Source of the DNA: Xanthomonas fragariae
Lineage (GTDB): Bacteria > Pseudomonadota > Gammaproteobacteria > Xanthomonadales > Xanthomonadaceae
Length of the DNA: 64,000 nt
Direction: 5' to 3'
Assembly: GCF_017603965.1 (NCBI RefSeq)
Contig: NZ_CP071955.1
Coordinates: 3,567,501-3,631,500, forward strand
Shown: positions 7,973 to 19,630 of the stretch, one piece after another
Layout of the letters: each line of letters opens with the position of its first letter
Numbering within the stretch: the first letter of the stretch is position 1
Position numbers and translations under genes: made by a program
Notes under the pieces: model-generated
Told to the model about the DNA's origin: nothing
Seen by the model: only the letters and a program-made list of their open reading frames with translations
Database searches by the model: none

Positions 7973-9574
7973 TCAGTTGGGCGCTTGCTCGACTGGCAAA
8001 TAATCGGCGGCCAAAGGATGTCCGCCGTCATGCGGCAGAACGATCGTGTCGAAGGGATCGTCGAATTTTTCGACCACGTTTTTGTCGTCGTCCACCTGGT
8101 AGGCCGTGTCGGCTTCCACGCCTTCCTCGCCGGTCTTGGCGATGATGTTGGTGTAGCGCTTGCCGTCCCAGCACCTGAAGATCAACACCGAGTCTTCGCC
8201 ACCGGTCAAGGTAGAACCCAGGCTGCCGATCAGCCGGCTATTGGCTCCTGCCGTCAGGATGCTGTTCTTTCCTGCCGTCAGCTTGCTGCGGTCGCCGGCC
8301 ATCAGGGTGCAGTCATCGCCGGCAGTGAGTTTGCTGCGGTCACCGGCAGTGAGGAAACTGTTGCTGCCGGCCAGCAACTTGCTGCGATCGCCAGCGGTCT
8401 GGGTACTGTCGGCACCGGCGATCAGCTTGCTGCGGTCGCCCGCGGTCTGCACGCTGCCCATGCCCGCGATCAAGGTGCTGCGCTAGCCGGCGGTTTGCGA
8501 ACTCAGCTTGCCCGCAATCAGCATGCTGCGATGGCCGGCAATCTGCGTGCTTTCATGCCCGGCGATCAACGAACTGCCATAGCTTGCGATCTGATTGCTG
8601 CCATAACCTGCGGTCAAATAGCTGCGCACGCCGCTGGTCAAGGTGCTGCCGTAGCCGGCGATCAGCGAACTATCGGTGCCCGCAGTTCCGGTGCTGCCGT
8701 AGCCGGCGGTGAGATCGCTGCCGTTCTGCGCGGTCTGCGTGCTGCCGTAACCGGCGGTCAACGAGCTATCGCCGCCGGAGGTCTGCGTGCTGCCGTAGCC
8801 GGCCGTCAGTTCGCTGCCGTTGCGGGCCGTCTGTGTGCTGCCATAACCGGCAGTCAGCGTGCTTCCACCTCCTGCTGTTTGAGAGCTGCCATAGCCGGCC
8901 ACAATGGTGCTGTCTGATCCGGCCACACCGGTGCTGCCGTAACCGGCGATCAACTCACTGCGGTTGCCTGCCGTCTCGGTGCTTCCATAGCCTGCGATCA
9001 GCTGACTCTGATCGGCGCCGGTCAGCGTGCTGCCATAGGTCGCGATCTCGCGTGTGCGCACGATCTCGTTTGCATGCTGCGCGGCTTGCGGTCCAACACC
9101 GTTGAGCGGCGATGGACTTGGCGCAGCAGAATGAGCACCGCTTTCAACGGCCGGCGCGGTGAACTGCGCGTGCGGCGCCTTGGGCGTGAATTCCGCGGCC
9201 ATGACGGTGGCGACGGGCAACTCGGGCTTGGGTGGCGCGTGTTGCTCGATGCCGGCGGCGATGCAGCTCATGGCGCCCGCACGGTTGCCGGCGTAGACCA
9301 CTTCGGCCCTGGGGAACTTGATCATTCCCTCTTCGCCCAACCAGATGATGTCGGCGGTATCGACCATGCAGACGACCCAATGCGCATCGGCAGGCATGTT
9401 CAAATGTGCGTTGGTTCCCTGCCCCCACAACAGGCCGGTCAGGCCGTTTTCCTGTTTGACGGTGGGCTGCCAGTGCCTGCATTCGACAGTGCCGGTCTGC
9501 GGCCAAATCAATCCGCAGTGGTCGGACATATTGTTGGTGCACGTGCGCAATGCCAAAACTTTTTCACGATTCAT
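7973..9574 (-). pseudogene. Short ice-nucleation protein gene with in-frame stop
   Basis: The N-terminal domain (LRTCTNNMSDHCGLIWPQTG and VKFP-like MIKFPRAEVVYAGNRAGA) and the C-terminal domain (IFRCWDGKRYTNIIAKTGEE then VEADTAYQVDDDKNVVEKFD) are those of bacterial ice-nucleation proteins, outer-membrane proteins that template ice. Between them is the AGYGSTxTAGxxSxLT repeat. Only about 17 repeats of 16 residues are present, whereas active family members have several times more. A TAG at 8483-8485 interrupts the frame at codon 364, inside the repeat; the frame reopens immediately after it. Total length would be 533 residues against roughly 1,200 or more for known proteins. The start at 9574 has GAGG upstream. 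Confidence 0.88.
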
Positions 9575-10743: not shown

Positions 10744-10746
10744 TAA

Positions 10747-10888
10747 GAGCGGCTAACAAAACGTAGCGAGCAGTCGTCAAGTGGGTGCGGACGGCGCGCA
10801 GGAACCGGAGTGTACGCGTGGTACATGCCAATTCCGAGCACCGGCCGCGCCCGCCTGGCGGTGAGCGCAGCCGTTTTGTTAGCCGCTC
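10747..10888 (+). mobile_element. MITE copy 3 (142 bp), upstream of purH
   Basis: Full-length copy with perfect ends and TAA duplications at 10744-10746 and 10889-10891. Its right end is only 63 bases from the purH ATG, so it lies within or at the edge of the purH promoter region and could influence purine gene expression. Confidence 0.93.
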
Positions 10889-10951
10889 TAAGCCCATCGA
10901 GCGCTGGCACGGCCTACAATATCGGCTGCTCCGCTTCGACATCCTTCACCG

Positions 10952-12535
10952 ATGGCCTCTGATTTCTTGCCCGTGCGCCGGGCCCTGCTCTCCGTTTCCG
11001 ACAAGACCGGCCTGATCGATCTGGCCCGCGCACTGGTGACGCGCAACGTCGAGCTACTGTCCACCGGCGGCACTGCCAAGGCGATCCGCGAAGCCGGTTT
11101 ATCGGTCAAAGACGTCTCCGAGCTGACCAGTTTCCCGGAAATGATGGACGGCCGCGTCAAGACCCTTCACCCGCTGGTGCACGGCGGCCTGCTCGGCCGC
11201 GCCGACCAGGACGAAGCGGTGATGGCCGAACACGGCATCGTGCCGATCGACCTGTTGGTGCTGAATCTGTATCCATTCGAGTCGGTCACTGCCAAGGCCG
11301 ATTGCACGCTGGCCGATGCGGTAGAAAACATCGATATCGGCGGCCCGGCGATGCTGCGTTCGGCGGCAAAAAATTTCGCGCGCGTGGCAGTGGCCACCGA
11401 CCCGTCGCAGTACGCCGAGCTGCTGGCCGAGCTGGAGGCCAACGACGGCCAGCTGTCGGCGGCCAAGCGCTTTGCGTTGTCGGTGGCCGCGTTCAACCGC
11501 GTGGCACAGTACGACGCGGCGATCAGCAACTATTTGTCTGCGGTGGCCGACAGTGCGGAGAGAGTGCCCACGCGCAGCCCGTTTCCGGCGCAGATCAATT
11601 CCAATTTCATCAAGGTCATGGACCTGCGCTATGGCGAGAACCCGCATCAGTCCGGCGCGTTCTACCGCGACCTGTCTCCGGTGCCGGGCACGCTGGCCAC
11701 CTTCCAGCAGTTGCAGGGCAAGGAACTGAGCTACAACAACCTTGCCGATGCCGATGCGGCATGGGAGTGCGTGCGCCAGTTCGATGCGCCGGCCTGCGTG
11801 ATCGTCAAGCATGCCAACCCCTGCGGGGTGGCGGTAGGCGCAGCCTGCGGCGATGCCTATGAGCTGGCCTATGCGACCGACCCGACCAGCGCCTTCGGCG
11901 GCATCCTGGCCTTCAACAAGACCCTCGATGCAGCGACTGCAAAAGCCATTCTGGACCGCCAGTTCGTCGAAGTGCTGATCGCCCCGGACTACGAGCCCGG
12001 CGCGCTCGAGTACGCCACCAAGAAATCCAACGTGCGCGTGCTCAAGATTCCGCACGGCAACGGCCTCAACAACTACGACACCAAGCGGATCGGTTCGGGC
12101 CTGTTGATGCAGTCGGCCGATAACCGGGGCATGTCGCTGGGCGAATTGAGCGTGGTCACCCAGCGTGCACCCAACGAGGCCGAACTGGGCGATCTGCTGT
12201 TCGCCTGGCGCGTGGCCAAGTACGTCAAATCCAACGCCATTGTCTATGCCAAGGACAGCCGCACGATCGGTGTCGGCGCCGGGCAGATGAGCCGCGTGGT
12301 CAGCGCCAAGATCGCCGCGCTCAAGGCCGAAGAAGCCAAGCTGGAAGTGGCCGGCTCGGTGATGGCATCGGATGCGTTCTTCCCGTTCCGCGACGGCATC
12401 GATGCCGCCGCCGCTGCCGGCATCAAGGCGGTGATCCAGCCCGGCGGCTCGATGCGCGATGGCGAAGTGATCGCCGCCGCCGACGAACACGGCATCGCGA
12501 TGGTGTTCACCGGCGTGCGGCATTTTCGGCACTGA
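10952..12535 (+). CDS. purH: Bifunctional AICAR formyltransferase / IMP cyclohydrolase
   Basis: Catalyses the last two steps of de novo IMP synthesis. The 527-residue length is normal. The N-terminal IMP cyclohydrolase domain begins [20 protein letters not shown] and has [15 protein letters not shown] and [18 protein letters not shown]. The C-terminal transformylase domain has the KHANPCGVA active-site motif, [10 protein letters not shown] and [11 protein letters not shown]. purD follows on the same strand after 119 bases containing an inverted GGGAATGGGG repeat. Confidence 0.97.
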
Positions 12536-12539
12536 AGTA

Positions 12540-12647
12540 CCGGGAATGGGGAGTGGGGAATCGCAAGAGCGGCATCCCTAGATCCCATTCCACATCGTAC
12601 GGCCTGCAGAAGCAAAGACTTTTCTATTTCCCATTCCCTATTCCCGG
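12540..12647. repeat. Inverted GGGAATGGGG repeat between purH and purD
   Basis: CCGGGAATGGGGAGTGGGGAA at 12540-12560 pairs with the reverse complement at 12627-12647, matching at about 17 of 21 positions. Repeats of this sequence are common between Xanthomonas genes. In the transcript the arms could form a long hairpin just ahead of the purD start. Confidence 0.6.
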
Positions 12648-12654
12648 CACTCAA

Positions 12655-13965
12655 ATGAAAATCCTCGTCATCGGCTCCGGCGGCCGTGAACATGCCCTGG
12701 CCTGGAAGGTCGCGCAGTCCGAGCGCGTGATCGAGGTGCTGGTCGCACCCGGCAATGCCGGCACCGCCGCCGAAGCCAAGTGCCGCAATATCGCGATCAA
12801 GGTCGACGATCTGGATGGTCTGCTCGCATTGGCCCAGCACGAAGATGTCGCGCTCACCGTGGTCGGCCCGGAAGTGCCGCTGGTGCTGGGCGTGGTCGAT
12901 CGTTTCCATGCCGCCGGCCTGCGTATCTTCGGGCCCACCGCCAAGGCTGCTCAGTTGGAAGGCAGCAAGGCCTTCGCGAAAGATTTTTTGGCCCGTCACG
13001 GCATCCCAACTGCGTATTACGCGGTGCATACCGACGTGGACGCGGCACTTGCCTACGTACGCGAGAAAGGCGCGCCGATCGTGGTCAAGGCCGATGGCCT
13101 GGCCGCCGGCAAGGGCGTGATCGTGGCGATGACGCTGGCCGAGGCCGAAGACGCAGTGCGCGACATGCTGTCTGGCAATGCCTTCGGCGATGCCGGCGCG
13201 CGCGTGGTCATCGAAGAATTTCTCGACGGCGAAGAAGCCAGCTTCATTTCGATGGTCGATGGCAAGCACGCCTTGCCGATGGCCACCAGCCAGGACCACA
13301 AGCGCATCGGCGATGGCGACACCGGCCCGAATACCGGCGGCATGGGCGCGTATTCGCCAGCGCCGGTGGTGACGCCCGAGGTGCATGCGCGGGTGATGCG
13401 CGAGGTGGTCGAGCCGACCGTGCAAGGCATGATCGCCGACGGCGTGCCGTTCACCGGCTTCTTGTACGCCGGGCTGATGATCGACGCACAAGGTGCACCC
13501 AAGGTGATCGAATTCAACGTGCGCTTCGGCGACCCGGAAACACAACCGGTAATGCTGCGCCTGCAGTCGAATCTGGTGGATTTGCTCGAAGCGGCCATCG
13601 ACGGCAAGCTCGACAGCGCGCAAGCGCAGTGGGACCCACGCCCGTCACTGGGCGTGGTCATCGCGGCCAAGCCATACCCGGAAGCACCGATCACCGGCGA
13701 GGTCATCAGCGGCCTGGACGCGGTGCCGGCCAATGCCAAGGTCTTCCACGCCGGCACCGCATTGAATGCCGAAGGTGAAGTGATCAGCGCCGGTGGCCGC
13801 GTGCTGTGCGTTGCCGCACTGGGCGACAGCGTGCTGGATGCGCAGCGCAACGCGTACGCAGGCCTGCAGCCGATCCATTGGGCCAGCGCCTTCCAGCGCA
13901 GCGACATTGGCTGGCGTGCGATCGCCCGCGAGCGCGAGCGCGACAAAACGACTGAGAGCGGCTGA
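12655..13965 (+). CDS. purD: Phosphoribosylamine-glycine ligase (GAR synthetase)
   Basis: ATP-grasp enzyme for the second step of de novo purine synthesis, 436 residues. The start ATG at 12655 gives [20 protein letters not shown], the canonical N-terminus; the open frame upstream of it is repeat DNA. Landmarks are [23 protein letters not shown] for ATP binding, [20 protein letters not shown] and [14 protein letters not shown] for metal binding. The last codons (TTESG) run into a triple 10-bp tandem repeat, so the natural C-terminus may have been altered. Confidence 0.96.
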
Positions 13966-13983
13966 GAGCGGCTGAGAGCGGCT
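13954..13983 (+). repeat. Triple 10-bp tandem repeat resembling the MITE end
   Basis: GAGAGCGGCT occurs three times in a row and is followed by GACAAAA. The unit plus what follows resembles the MITE terminus GAGCGGCTAACAAAA. It covers the purD stop codon. Confidence 0.7.
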
Positions 13984-14180
13984 GACAAAAAACGCACTCA
14001 ACCCACCCTGATCTTTCCTCACCCGGCACTAGCTGCCAAGAGACTTTAATCGGGTCTTGCTGTGGCGAATACCGCTCAACGCATTTTCTGTTTGAATTTA
14101 CATTACGCGCGGAGACCGCAGCATGAAAATTGAGTCCATCCGGCTAAGGAACTTCAAAGCGTTTCGTGATGTGCACCTAA

Positions 14181-15337
14181 GTAAGCTCTGAACAACGCCC
14201 CCAGATGCGCGACACTACACACCTACGTTGAGGAGTGATCCATGCAACTGACGTTTGGTGACGCCGAGGGCCTGGGTAAGCGCAAGCAGACCCGCCGGGA
14301 AATCTTCCTGGCCGAGATGGAGCAGGTCGTTCCGTGGCAGCGGTTGCTTGCGCTGATCGCACCGCACTATCCGGCGTCGGGACGGCCAGGTCGGCAGCCG
14401 TACGCACTGGCCACGATGTTGCGGATTCATCTACTGCAACAGTGGTACGCGCTGAGCGATCCGGCGATGGAAGAAGCGTTGCATGAGATCCCGAGCTTGC
14501 GGCGTTTTGCCCAGCTCGGTGGGTTGGACAACGTTCCTGACGAGACCACGATTCTCAATTTTCGTCGTTTGCTGGAGACCCATGGCCTGGCCGCGCGGAT
14601 GCTGGAAGCGGTCAACGCGCATCTGGCGCGCAAGGGTCAAAGTCTGCGCTCGGGCACGATCGTCGATGCAACCCTGATCGCTGCGCCCAGTTCGACCAAG
14701 AACGCTGACCACGCGCGCGATCCTGAGATGCACCAGACCAAGAAAGGCAAGCAATATTACTTCGGGATGAAAGCGCACATTGGAGTAGACGATGTGTCCG
14801 GGTTGGTGCACCACGTGGAATGCACGGCGGCCAACGTTGCCGATATCACGCAGGCGCACAAGCTGCTGCATGGCAAGGAAGACACGCTCAGCGGGGATAG
14901 CGGTTACACGGGGCTGGACAAGCGCGCGGAGATGGCGCGCAAGCGCAAGTTGCGCTACCTGATTGCAGAGAAGCCGTCCAAGCTCAAGCAGATCAAGAAC
15001 GCGCGCGAGTTGCAGTGGGCCCAGCGCTGGGAGCACACCAAGGCCAGCCTGCGGGCGAAGGTGGAACATCCATTTCGGGTGATCAAACGCCAGTTTGGTT
15101 ACGTCAAGGTCCGCTATCGCGGCCTAGCGAAGAATACCGCGCAGGTGCTGACGCTGTTTGCGCTATCCAATCTATGGATGGTGCGCCGGCAGTTATTGCC
15201 GGCCAAGGCATAATGCTGTCCGGCGGCAGCTGAAGCCGCCAGATAAGCGCAAAATCTCGTCTTACATACCCAATTTACGCGTTACTGGCGCTCTCTATGC
15301 TGATATTTTTAGGTGTTGAGAGTTGTTCAGACCTTCC
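14181..15337 (+). mobile_element. IS5-family insertion sequence (1,157 bp) in the ATPase gene
   Basis: Bounded by CTAA duplications at 14177-14180 and 15338-15341. The ends form 16-bp inverted repeats (GTAAGCTCTGAACAAC against GGAAGGTCTGAACAAC) matching at 14 of 16 positions. CTAA-type 4-bp targets are typical of the IS5 group. It carries one transposase gene and appears complete. Exact relatives would need a database search; IS1478-like elements of Xanthomonas are the obvious candidates. Confidence 0.9.
14242..15213 (+). CDS. IS5-family DDE transposase
   Basis: The single 323-residue transposase of the surrounding IS, apparently intact. The N-terminal part (MQLTFGDAEGLGKRKQTRRE, then ATMLRIHLLQQWYALSDPAM) is the IS5 DUF772-type domain. 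DDE residues are visible in GTIVDATLIAAPSSTKN (first D), LSGDSGYTGLDKRAE (second D) and the RAKVEHPFRVIKRQFGY block (E), the Y-(2)R-(3)E-(6)K signature region. It is translated in the same direction as the ATPase gene it interrupts. Confidence 0.93.
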   Translation: MQLTFGDAEGLGKRKQTRREIFLAEMEQVVPWQRLLALIAPHYPASGRPGRQPYALATMLRIHLLQQWYALSDPAMEEALHEIPSLRRFAQLGGLDNVPDETTILNFRRLLETHGLAARMLEAVNAHLARKGQSLRSGTIVDATLIAAPSSTKNADHARDPEMHQTKKGKQYYFGMKAHIGVDDVSGLVHHVECTAANVADITQAHKLLHGKEDTLSGDSGYTGLDKRAEMARKRKLRYLIAEKPSKLKQIKNARELQWAQRWEHTKASLRAKVEHPFRVIKRQFGYVKVRYRGLAKNTAQVLTLFALSNLWMVRRQLLPAKA

Positions 15338-15576
15338 CTAAAGAACATGCCTTCGTTTCTTGTAGTGGTGGGGGCCAATGGATCAGGCAAGAGCACCTTG
15401 TTCGATGTATTCTGCTTTCTCCATGATTGCCTGAAAGGGAATGTTCGACAGGCGCTGGACAAGCGAGGGCGTTTCCGCGAGGTGCTCAGCCGCGGATGTG
15501 ATCCGGCAACCGATGCGATTTTAATCGAGCTGCAATATAAAATGGAAATTACCGGTATTGAGCGACTGGTAACTTA

Positions 15577-15714
15577 GAGCGGCTAACAAAACGTAGCGAG
15601 CAGTCGTCAGGTGGGTGCGGACGGCGCGCAGGAACCGGAGTGTAAGCGTGGTACATGCCAATTCCCAGCACCGGCCGCGCCCGCCTGGCGGCGCAGTCGT
15701 TTTGTTAGCCGCTC
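15577..15714 (+). mobile_element. MITE copy 4 (138 bp), inside the ATPase gene
   Basis: Perfect terminal repeats and TTA duplications at 15574-15576 and 15715-15717. The insertion adds 141 bases including the duplication, a multiple of three, but the TTA|GAG junction itself creates a TAG stop in the ATPase frame. It lacks the GTGA before GCGCAGTCG near the right end. Confidence 0.94.
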
Positions 15715-16614
15715 TTACTCTATCGAGATCGGCGAAGAAAATGGCGCTCCTATAGTGCAGAGAGAGTTGCTGCGTTACAAACGTGGCCGCTATGGCAGCC
15801 CCTATCATTTCCTGGATTTCTCCAAAGGTGAGGGTTATGCGATAACCAATGAGGAGGACTTCAAAAAAGCCGACTCAGAACTGGATAGAGAAAGTCAGAA
15901 AGTGTCCCCTGATACACTGGCGATCAAAGGATTAGGGCAATTCGAGCGGTTCAAGGCAGCCAATGCATTTCGGCAATTGATCGAAAACTGGCACGTTTCT
16001 GATTTTCATATCAGCGCAGCCAGAGGACGCAAAGAAGCCACTGGCGACTCCGAGCATCTTTCGGAAAGCGGCGACAACTTGCCGCTGGTCGCTCAATACA
16101 TGAACGAACGTCATTCGGTGGTATTCCGCAGTATCCTTGACATTATGGCAAGACGCGTTCCCGGCGTAACCTCAGTCGAGCCCAAGCTGATGGACGATGG
16201 CTATCTCACGCTACGCTTTCAAGATGGTTCGTTTAAGACGCCTTTCCTGGACCGCTATGTGTCTGACGGAACGATCAAGATGTTTGCCTACCTGGTACTC
16301 CTCCATGACCCCGATCCTCATCCGTTGCTGTGTGTCGAGGAACCTGAGAACCAATTATATCCGCAGCTCATGAGCGAACTGGCGGAAGAGTTTCGCATGT
16401 ATGCTGATCGCGGCGGGCAAGTATTGGTTTCCACTCATTCCCCTGACTTTTTGAACGCTACCGAGCTTGAAGAGGCATTCTGGCTGGTGAAGCGAAACGG
16501 TTGCACGGAGGTTCACCGCGCACGTGATGACAAGCAAATTGCCAATTATGTAAAAGAAGGCGATCAACTTGGCTATCTGTGGAAACAGGGATTCTTCGAT
16601 GGGGTAGACCCGAA

Positions 16615-17196
16615 ATGAGAGAGCTGGTATTTCTTCTGGAAGAGCGTTCAGCTAAAGCCATGCTGGAAAATTTACTGCCTCGCCTCTTGTCGAAAGATAT
16701 TCGGTATCGCCTTGTCGCTTTTGAAGGAAAGCAGGATCTGGAAAAACAACTGGAACGCCGCATCCGTGGCTACCAAAACCCGCGCGCCCGTTTTATTGTA
16801 CTCAGAGATCTCGACAGCCACCCTGACTGCATAGTTATGAAAAGTAAATTGCTAGAAATCTGCAAACGCTCTGGACGCAGTCAGTATTGCCTGGTGAGAA
16901 TTGCCTGCACGGAACTGGAAACTTTTTACCTTGCCGACCTCGCAGCAGTCGGTATAGCACTCCAAATGACCACGCTCGCCTCTCAACAGAACCATCGCAA
17001 GTTCAGATCGCCAGACGAGCTCGGCAACCCAAGCAAAGAACTCAGAACCATTACAAAGAACAAGTATCAGAAGGTGGATGGTTCGCGCGCCATCGGGAAA
17101 TATCTCCAATTGGACAATGTTCGCTCCGCCAGTTTTCGCAATCTGATTTCTGGCGTCAGACGCATGGAGGCGGAACTCCTCTCCGCTTCGACTTGA
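16615..17196 (+). CDS. DUF4276 family protein, TOPRIM-like, partner of the ATPase
   Basis: A 193-residue protein overlapping the ATPase stop by ATGA, which points to translational coupling. It begins MRELVFLLEERSAKAMLENL; LEE resembles the conserved glutamate strand of TOPRIM-like nucleases, and VLRDLDSHPDC supplies a DxD motif about 55 residues later. TELETFYLADLAAVG and YQKVDGSRAIGKYLQL fit the DUF4276 family. ATPase-plus-DUF4276 or TOPRIM pairs resemble OLD, PARIS and AbiL-type anti-phage systems, in which the ATPase restrains a nuclease effector. The role here is inference. This gene is intact although its partner is not. Confidence 0.82.
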   Translation: MRELVFLLEERSAKAMLENLLPRLLSKDIRYRLVAFEGKQDLEKQLERRIRGYQNPRARFIVLRDLDSHPDCIVMKSKLLEICKRSGRSQYCLVRIACTELETFYLADLAAVGIALQMTTLASQQNHRKFRSPDELGNPSKELRTITKNKYQKVDGSRAIGKYLQLDNVRSASFRNLISGVRRMEAELLSAST

Positions 17197-17413
17197 AAAA
17201 TAGGCGTGTGGATTGGTTCGGCAAAGACCGGCGCCACTTCCCGAAGCAAGCGTTCCCACCGTGAAACATTGGCTGTCGCGTTCTGACAAGGGACTCAGGG
17301 CCTGAGCACCCTGCGCGTTTCGTAGTTGCTACTGACAAAGAGCTAGCCGCTCTCTACACCCATGACGCGTGCCTGCGGCGATAATGCCCTGACACGCTTG
17401 CCTTGCAGAGACT

Positions 17414-19630
17414 GTGGCCACTTCTTCCTTCGAAACCCGCCTTAGCCGCTTGTGGGCCCATGAAAAGGCCAGCTATGGCCTGCGTGTGTTCACCGCGCTG
17501 GCGGTGGCGATGGGCGTGTGCTGGCACTGGCAGCAACTCACCGCGGTACCGGCGCTGTTCCTTGGCGCGATCGCCAGTGCCATTGCTGAAACCGACGACA
17601 ACTGGCTGGGCCGCATCAAATCGGTGCTGCTGTCCTTGCTGTGTTTTGCCGCCGCTGCGGCTGCGGTGGTGCTGCTGTTTCCGTATCCGCTGCCGTTCGT
17701 GATCGGGATGGCGTTGGCGACCTTCTCACTGACCCTGCTCGGTGCATTGGGCGAGCGCTATGCCTCAATCGCACAGGCCACGGTGGCCTTATCGATCTAC
17801 GCCATGATCGGCATTGACCAGCATGGCAGCCACGACCCGCACATCGCCTGGCACGGCGCGACGCTGCTGCTGATCGGCGCCAGCTGGTACGGCGTGCTGT
17901 CGATCCTGTGGACCATCCTGTTCGCCAATCGCCCGGTGCGCGAGCGGCTGTCGCGGCTGTTCTTCGAGCTGGGCCACTATCTCAAGCTCAAGGCCGATCT
18001 GTTTGAACCGGTGCGGCAGAGCGACCTGCATGCGCGCCGGCTGGCGCTGGCCGAGCAAAACGCCAAAGTCGTCGGCGCGCTCAATGCCGCCAAGACCGCG
18101 ATCATGAGCCGCTTCGGCCGCTCCGGTCGACCGGGCGTGCAATCGGGGCTGTATTTCCGGCTGTATTACATGGCCCAGGAATTTCACGAGCGCGCCAGCT
18201 CCTCCCACTATCCCTATGAAGCGCTGACCGAGGCGTTCTTCCACAGCGATGTGCTGTATCGCTGCCAGCGTCTGCTCGCGCTGCAAGGCAAAGCATGCGC
18301 CGCATTGGGCGAGGCGATCCGCCTGCGTCATCCGTTCGACTATGGCGAACACAGCCGCCTGGCGACCGAAGATCTGCGCCAATCGCTGGATTATCTACAC
18401 GCACGTGCCGATCCAGCATTCGCGCGCCTGCTCGGTGCGCTGGAATTGTTGGTGACCAACCTGCAGAGCATCGAACGCAAGCTGTCGGAAGCGGCGCAAT
18501 CCGATTCCACCAGCGACCAGATCGACACGCGCTTGCGTGACTCTTCGCCGCACACCTTGCGCGAGATGACGGCACGTCTGGTGCAACAACTCACACCTGG
18601 CTCGGTGCTGTTCCGGCACGGCCTGCGCATGGCCGTCGCGCTGCTGGTCGGCTACGCCATCATGCACTTCATCCACGCCGATAACGGCTACTGGATCCTG
18701 CTCACTACCGCCTTCGTGTGCCGGCCCAATTACGGCGCCACCCGCTTGCGACTGGTCCAGCGCATCGCCGGCACCCTGATCGGCCTGATCGTCACCTGGG
18801 CGCTGATGCAGCTGTTCCCCGGCACGGAAGTGCAGCTGCTGCTGGCGCTGGCCGCCGCGCTGGTATTCTTCATCACCCGCACCGATCGCTACATGCTGGC
18901 CACCGCCGGCATCACCGTAATGGCGCTGCTCTGCTTCAACCTGCTCGGCGACGGCTTCGTGCTTATCTGGCCGCGCCTGATCGACACGTTGATCGGCTGC
19001 GCGATTGCTGCAGCCGCATCGTTCCTGATACTGCCCGATTGGCAAGGCCGCCGCCTCAATCAGGTGATGGCAACGGTGCTGGCCAGCTGCGCGCAGTATC
19101 TCACCCAGGTGCTGGAGCAATACGCCAGCGGCATGCGCGACGATCTGCCCTACCGCATCGCACGTCGCGACATGCACAACGCCGATGCCGCATTGTCGGT
19201 GGCGTTGTCCAACATGTTGCGGGAACCGGGCCGCTATCGGCGTAATCTGGATGCGGGTTTCCGCTTCCTGGCGCTGTCCAACACCTTGCTCGGGTATCTG
19301 TCCGCACTGGGGGCGCATCGCGCCGCGCTCGAGGGCGAACACGACCCCACCATCGCGCAGGCCGGCGAGTATCTGCAGCGCGCACTGAGCGAAGTCGCCA
19401 CCGCATTGCGCGAACGCCAACCATTGCCGATGCACGACGAAACCGAAGAAGTGGCCATCGCCGAAGCGCTGGAACAACACGCCGTTCAATTGCAGCCCAA
19501 GCAGCGCTTGGTGCGCGACCAGTTGGCGTTGACGCTGCGTCTATTGCCCAAGCTGCGTGCCGCTGCGTTGGCAGTCACCACTGCACCGGCGGCAGATAGC
19601 GCGGCGCGTTTAGCGATAACCAACGCCTAG
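17414..19630 (+). CDS. FUSC/YccS-family inner-membrane protein
   Basis: A 738-residue protein from a GTG start (ATSSFETRLSRLWAHEK follows). Two hydrophobic blocks of about six helices each (residues 20-170 and about 395-530) are separated by a cytosolic domain of about 220 residues, the layout of YccS/YhfK and the fusaric-acid-resistance family. Visible are GVCWHWQQLTAVPALFLGAI, MVQQLTPGSVLFRHGLR before the second block, and TAFVCRPNYGATRLRLVQRI with AGTLIGLIVTW. Such proteins are thought to export aromatic acids or act in envelope stress, but no substrate is established here. It looks complete and monocistronic. Confidence 0.85.
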   Translation: MATSSFETRLSRLWAHEKASYGLRVFTALAVAMGVCWHWQQLTAVPALFLGAIASAIAETDDNWLGRIKSVLLSLLCFAAAAAAVVLLFPYPLPFVIGMALATFSLTLLGALGERYASIAQATVALSIYAMIGIDQHGSHDPHIAWHGATLLLIGASWYGVLSILWTILFANRPVRERLSRLFFELGHYLKLKADLFEPVRQSDLHARRLALAEQNAKVVGALNAAKTAIMSRFGRSGRPGVQSGLYFRLYYMAQEFHERASSSHYPYEALTEAFFHSDVLYRCQRLLALQGKACAALGEAIRLRHPFDYGEHSRLATEDLRQSLDYLHARADPAFARLLGALELLVTNLQSIERKLSEAAQSDSTSDQIDTRLRDSSPHTLREMTARLVQQLTPGSVLFRHGLRMAVALLVGYAIMHFIHADNGYWILLTTAFVCRPNYGATRLRLVQRIAGTLIGLIVTWALMQLFPGTEVQLLLALAAALVFFITRTDRYMLATAGITVMALLCFNLLGDGFVLIWPRLIDTLIGCAIAAAASFLILPDWQGRRLNQVMATVLASCAQYLTQVLEQYASGMRDDLPYRIARRDMHNADAALSVALSNMLREPGRYRRNLDAGFRFLALSNTLLGYLSALGAHRAALEGEHDPTIAQAGEYLQRALSEVATALRERQPLPMHDETEEVAIAEALEQHAVQLQPKQRLVRDQLALTLRLLPKLRAAALAVTTAPAADSAARLAITNA

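Follow-up and report, generated by a model that had tools for sequence, protein, structure and literature searches.

The pair formed by an ABC-type ATPase and a DUF4276 protein is already listed by PADLOC as a candidate defence system, Hma-embedded candidate 01 (HEC-01); Hma is described in the PADLOC paper (PMC8565338). One study lists HEC-01 among the systems it detected (PMC12724379). For HEC-04, in which ABC ATPase and TOPRIM are fused, activity against T4 and T5 is described (PMC12111858), as is antiviral activity for several HECs including HEC-06 (PMC12988326). No anti-phage result for HEC-01 itself was found in the literature searched. Similar in layout is PARIS, in which an ATPase hexamer (AriA) sequesters a TOPRIM subunit (AriB) encoded by a separate, adjacent gene, and which senses the anti-restriction protein Ocr and cuts tRNA (PMC12839542; PMC12409363). 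The OLD nucleases of classes 1 and 2, such as GajA of Gabija, carry an ABC ATPase and a TOPRIM domain in one polypeptide. Here we analyzed a 64,000-nucleotide stretch of the Xanthomonas fragariae genome (contig NZ_CP071955.1, positions 3,567,501 to 3,631,500; hereafter the window) and found that the interval between purD and a FUSC-like gene holds a disrupted copy of HEC-01. We consider it probable, at roughly 60%, that this locus was inactivated by an IS5-family element and a miniature inverted-repeat transposable element (MITE) in its ATPase gene, and that the intact form is a "split OLD" ABC ATPase/TOPRIM pair with a mechanism like those of PARIS and OLD/Gabija.

An HEC-01 locus with a twice-interrupted ATPase gene

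The operon is located on the plus strand between purD (12553-13965, plus strand; Pfam GARS_A/N/C), which is both left neighbour and insertion site, and the FUSC-like gene (17414-19630, plus strand), which encodes a yccS-type membrane protein (PF12805, E 6.1e-99). Its ATPase gene starts at 14123 and is coupled by an ATGA overlap between stop and start codon to the DUF4276 gene (16615-17196), whose frame of 193 amino acids is open. A sequence-only reading of the window had given the coordinates and motifs of this operon correctly, including the open partner gene. The ATPase gene is present as three plus-strand pieces: fragment 1 (14123-14180), fragment 2 with the Walker A motif GANGSGKS (15338-15576), and fragment 3 with the Walker B motif LLCVEEPE and the switch histidine in STHSP (15715-16618).

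Fragments 1 and 2 are separated by an IS5-family insertion sequence (IS) of 1,157 bp (14181-15337, plus strand), which encodes a transposase of 323 amino acids (14242-15213, plus strand; NCBIfam NF033581, E 8.6e-103; DDE_Tnp_1, E 1e-34). A 4-bp target duplication can be read at 14177-14180 and 15338-15341, and the genome contains eight full-length copies of about 100% identity including this one, with 40 of 78 candidates scored. The second interruption is the 138-bp MITE (15577-15714), which has perfectly paired inverted arms of 18 nt (15576-15593 and 15698-15715) and a 3-bp duplication. Counting this one, the genome has 41 or more sites with the MITE (40 of 348 candidates scored), and the nearest other copy is 99% identical. 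The proposal of two separate insertions in the ATPase gene is supported.

We used naturally intact copies in other Xanthomonas genomes to check the reading frame. X. bromi (G009) and X. dyei (G015) carry an intact ATPase gene of 397 codons (1,194 nt with the stop) at the same site, within which the three window pieces are contiguous, end to end; this is also the length that had been predicted for the rejoined gene. An uninterrupted ATPase of 397 amino acids (P0131) is encoded in a different X. fragariae genome (4,122,720-bp contig), and the fragments align to it without an internal stop at residues 1-19 (19/19 identical), 21-97 (75/77) and 99-397 (298/299). The interruption looks like a strain-level event, because this nearly identical allele is intact in the same species. 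The description of the gene as otherwise undamaged does not hold in full: it differs from P0131 by three substitutions, of which two fall at positions conserved to at least 90% in our alignment (A3).

Breakage of the pair is not confined to the window strain. Intact ATPase alleles are present in X. oryzae, X. cucurbitae and X. fragariae. In X. cucurbitae G014 the ATPase frame is shifted, and two contig ends share terminal sequence and overlap by 8 bp, as an IS would leave. In X. axonopodis G008, contigs end within the ATPase and within the DUF4276 gene. Clusters of X. oryzae DUF4276 proteins include forms of 169 (108 contigs) and 178 amino acids (6 contigs), both starting after E9, and the full form of 193 amino acids occurs there as well.

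Comparison with described systems

Both proteins match the PADLOC models for HEC-01 best, which bears out the suggestion of a defence-like pair and overturns the statement that it is not clearly any known system. The HEC-01B model PDLC04144 matches ATPase fragment 2 with E 4.3e-33 (profile 21-95), fragment 3 with E 1.1e-175 (97-395 of 395) and the intact allele with E 4.1e-230 across profile positions 1-395, while PDLC04143 matches the DUF4276 protein with E 3.9e-92 (1-188 of 190). As in the PADLOC definition, the two genes are adjacent; the locus differs in that its ATPase gene is interrupted by the IS and the MITE, and in its position at the 3' end of purD instead of within an Hma operon.

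Other systems score far lower. The PARIS AriA model reaches E 4e-30 on the intact ATPase, and the partner is a DUF4276 protein, in contrast to AriB, which we take to be a DUF4435 protein; the shared features are the side-by-side genes and the TOPRIM fold. MADS models match the intact ATPase (mad3, E 1.3e-24) and the DUF4276 protein (mad4, E 0.008), but the neighbours are purD and the FUSC-like gene and not a multi-gene MADS operon. The AbiLi model of AbiL likewise matches the intact ATPase more weakly than HEC-01 (E 3.8e-24), and AbiLii is not among the 11 PADLOC families listed for the DUF4276 protein. With the OLD nucleases, the pair shares an OLD-type TOPRIM fold, the pattern of E, DxD and xxE, and an ABC ATPase, but it consists of two polypeptides.

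The claim that the gene was silenced, an inference for this ATPase, does not extend to the strain. The same genome encodes a further HEC-01 pair, intact and of a different subtype (region C1:657165-657770), which the sequence-only reading had not noticed; it consists of an ATPase of 410 amino acids (39% identical to P0131) and a DUF4276 protein of 221 amino acids whose open reading frames (ORFs) lie 2 nt apart. The strain has therefore lost one HEC-01 copy, not the kind.

The DUF4276 protein as a predicted TOPRIM nuclease

The DUF4276 protein matches PF14103 (E 2.6e-13) and no other Pfam family at E ≤ 0.1, and a comparison with solved structures by sequence gave nothing useful. Its predicted structure has the TOPRIM alpha/beta fold, and E9, D65 and D67, i.e. 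the glutamate after strand 1 and the DxD motif, are invariant in 67/67 DUF4276 sequences. These features agree with the proposal of a TOPRIM-like partner and point to a predicted OLD-type TOPRIM nuclease. In the fold comparison, the OLD TOPRIM ranks above AriB; a specific structural kinship with PARIS was dropped since AriB scored no better than unrelated folds.

That the protein is a catalytically dead TOPRIM regulator or scaffold, with the ATPase doing the work, is a quite improbable alternative. The second metal-B acid of class 2 OLD proteins (E404, four residues past the TOPRIM glutamate) is absent, position 13 being A in 63, M in 2, S in 1 and E in 1 of the 67 sequences, where the equivalence was set by motif order and not by superposition, with E9 taken as the TOPRIM glutamate. 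In the E. coli OLD protein YbjD, moreover, function required the ATPase domain but not the TOPRIM domain (PMC13261556). Against this alternative, E, DxD and ExE are all invariant, both in the 67 sequences and in 12/12 of a more diverse set.

For the ATPase, which carries the Pfam label AAA_21, heads of structural maintenance of chromosomes (SMC) proteins rank highest in the comparison of predicted folds, and Rad50 and PtuA come within about 1-1.5 Z of them; the sequence search of solved structures gave one weak OLD match for fragment 3 (6p74, E 0.035). This ranking would also fit a horizontally carried pair that mainly serves DNA repair or chromosome maintenance rather than defence, as would the housekeeping surroundings of some copies and an archaeal OLD-family ATPase that acts in the cell cycle and apparently not in defence (PMC12796447). 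We regard such a role as rather improbable in view of the patchy occurrence (10/35 genomes of the genus and 7/198 sampled genomes of the family, the own genome counted in both), the restriction-modification (R-M) operons around 7 of 40 loci, the PADLOC listing and the broken copies in several Xanthomonas genomes.

The mechanism that we consider most likely for the intact HEC-01 pair is modelled on PARIS and OLD/Gabija. The ATPase, with its predicted SMC/Rad50-type head, would serve as sensor and scaffold that binds the TOPRIM subunit and restrains or licenses it. Some phage trigger, which might be a restriction-blocking protein, would alter the state of the ATPase, whereupon the TOPRIM subunit would cleave nucleic acid, either DNA or tRNA, by a two-metal reaction, and this cutting would stop the phage or the infected cell. 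Trigger, substrate, toxicity and anti-phage effect are all drawn from this analogy and the folds are predictions, whereas the pairing, the gene overlap, the residue conservation and the interruption were observed. Phage records contained no DUF4276 match at E 1e-5, and two distant matches (27-28% identical) were found on viral contigs.

Coupling of the two genes across genomes

Pairing was analyzed in the best, i.e. closest, 80 of at least 527 confirmed genome-contig relatives. An ATPase ORF lies directly upstream of the DUF4276 gene in 79 of them, the sole exception being an X. axonopodis sequence (L113) that begins inside DUF4276. The junctions are ATGA (71), GTGA (4) and TAATG or TAGTG (4), and none of the 80 loci contains a fused ORF. 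In a class-wide Pfam search, 27 of 229 genomes gave 36 matches, and the ATPase adjoins DUF4276 in 28 of 29 loci read, the window's own excluded; the exception (L193) has a truncated DUF4276 gene, beside ORFs that we labelled integrase- or transposase-like from their translations. Judging from record titles, the relatives among the matches listed include Pseudomonadota, Hymenobacter, Planctomycetota, a cyanobacterium, Synergistota and Bacillota. Pairs of the HEC-01 type also occur on plasmids of Synechocystis (pSYSM, L088), Pseudanabaena (L090) and Meiothermus (L091). The sequence-only reading had named three outcomes that would speak against it, namely no co-occurrence of the two families, a partner fold without TOPRIM features and intact orthologues in an inconsistent frame; none of the three occurred.

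Such near-obligate coupling would also fit a toxin-antitoxin-like addiction pair, in which the ATPase neutralises a toxic TOPRIM protein and the main gain is that the carrying element is stably kept. The plasmid-borne copies and the AAA_21 label, described by Pfam as "putative AbiEii toxin, Type IV TA system", fit this view. It is nonetheless decidedly improbable, as in both the window strain and X. cucurbitae G014 the gene for the supposed antidote is broken and that for the partner open, so that DUF4276 alone would be non-lethal or unexpressed there. Relaxed selection on the left-over DUF4276 gene could not be demonstrated. The ratio of nonsynonymous to synonymous divergence (dN/dS) was 0.087 between the window and X. 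dyei compared to 0.084 for the pair X. bromi/X. dyei, and synonymous sites were close to saturation; a piece of the X. cucurbitae ATPase that was out of frame was kept out of these ratios.

History of the purD site

The 3' end of purD and the 5' end of the FUSC-like gene were each found in all 35 genomes of the genus. HEC-01 is present between them in five; in the other 30 the matches lie less than 1 kb apart, too short a gap for the pair. Downstream of DUF4276, where the window has the intergenic stretch 17197-17413, a degenerate additional copy of the purD 3' end, about 65 bp long, is present in each of the four other carriers, X. bromi, X. dyei, X. cucurbitae and X. axonopodis; its score was reached by 0/500 shuffles with either of two purD queries. 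In the window, this remnant is not above chance (158 and 16 of 500 shuffles, respectively). The PurD proteins of the same four carriers end in (D/G)Q, compared to Q followed by A, G or S in 29/29 readable non-carriers (the G024 end was not readable), and the window PurD terminus differs from both. In X. bromi, X. dyei and X. axonopodis, the remnant fits non-carrier purD ends better on average than carrier ends, the X. cucurbitae remnant being undecided. Given the remnant and this pattern of PurD ends, it looks as if the insertion took the place of the final purD codons and moved the former end downstream.

Between the window and X. dyei, synonymous divergence is 0.36 for PurD and 0.44 for FUSC, compared to 1.5 for DUF4276 and 2.9 (near saturation) for ATPase fragment 3; the values between X. 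bromi and X. dyei are 0.33, 0.35, 0.40 and 0.51. Because the pair is far more diverged than its flanks, the window copy probably reached the purD site separately or was replaced by recombination. The site is empty in G019, a near relative of the window strain, whose misaligned PurD was left out of the comparisons. Linkage to purD was not seen outside Xanthomonas, with PurD-like neighbours in 2/82 and FUSC-like neighbours in 4/82 loci, all of them from Xanthomonas.

Several further features were observed around this site. In three genomes, extra purD 3'-end copies lie between purD and the FUSC-like gene without HEC-01: G018 has two, both long, G028 has one, and G012 has three short ones. In the window strain, tandem CTGAGAGCGG units resembling the MITE end lie at the purD 3' end (13952-13990). 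Upstream of purD lies a purH-like gene (10952-12535; Pfam AICARFT_IMPCHas), and just 5' of it a second copy of the ATPase-interrupting MITE (94% identical, 10746-10889). On the minus strand at 7973-9574, AGYGSTxTA-type repeats, which we take to resemble an ice-nucleation protein, extend over two ORFs (7973-8473 and 8483-9574).

Surroundings outside Xanthomonas

Forty of the 80 loci lie outside Xanthomonas and have full flanks. By a rule-based count, 15 of these have a close same-strand ORF on both sides, and in seven of the 15 both are R-M genes, of type I (L108, L109, L110, L112, L117) or type III (L125, L131). This count supersedes an earlier pick by eye, in which 8 of 10 tightly flanked loci had appeared to lie in R-M or methylase operons. 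L166 is flanked by DUF1156 and DUF499 genes, presumably of the methylase type. Metabolic or signalling genes flank L141 and L158, Maf lies on one side of L160 and a DUF3418 helicase on one side of L137; the ORFs adjacent to L164, L167 and L176 had no Pfam match. A type ISP restriction enzyme on one side of L159 and a purL-type gene on one side of L119 were found as well. At L141, in a Polaromonas metagenome-assembled genome (MAG), the pair is located between the homoserine dehydrogenase and threonine synthase genes, and at L119, in a betaproteobacterial MAG, directly 3' of the purL-type (FGAR-AT) gene. On the Meiothermus plasmid it lies beside type I restriction genes. Among the 74 larger neighbours of the 40 loci, the raw counts of matches are 6 for N6_Mtase, 6 for ResIII, 5 for HsdM_N and 3 for Methylase_S.

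As PARIS, of similar layout, senses Ocr, a restriction-guard role of HEC-01 in R-M operons is plausible. A broader proposal is that HEC-01 is an integrase-less cassette of about 2 kb which lands at the purD 3' end, swaps the last PurD codons and pushes the old end downstream, that the site was filled more than once in Xanthomonas, and that the same pair in R-M operons acts as a guard firing when phage proteins block restriction. The recount slightly lowered its probability, and we consider this proposal tentative and on balance unlikely.

Implications

Beyond the PADLOC listing, the TOPRIM assignment of DUF4276, the strict coupling of the two genes and the history of the purD site are useful additions. 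The pair spans phyla, yet DUF4276 does not appear as a word in the literature searched. The predicted link of DUF4276 to OLD-type TOPRIM domains, together with the near-obligate coupling to an ABC ATPase, offers a concrete and testable mechanism. Within a single genus, the purD site is found in intact, empty and broken states, which makes it a suitable place to quantify how a candidate defence module is gained and lost.
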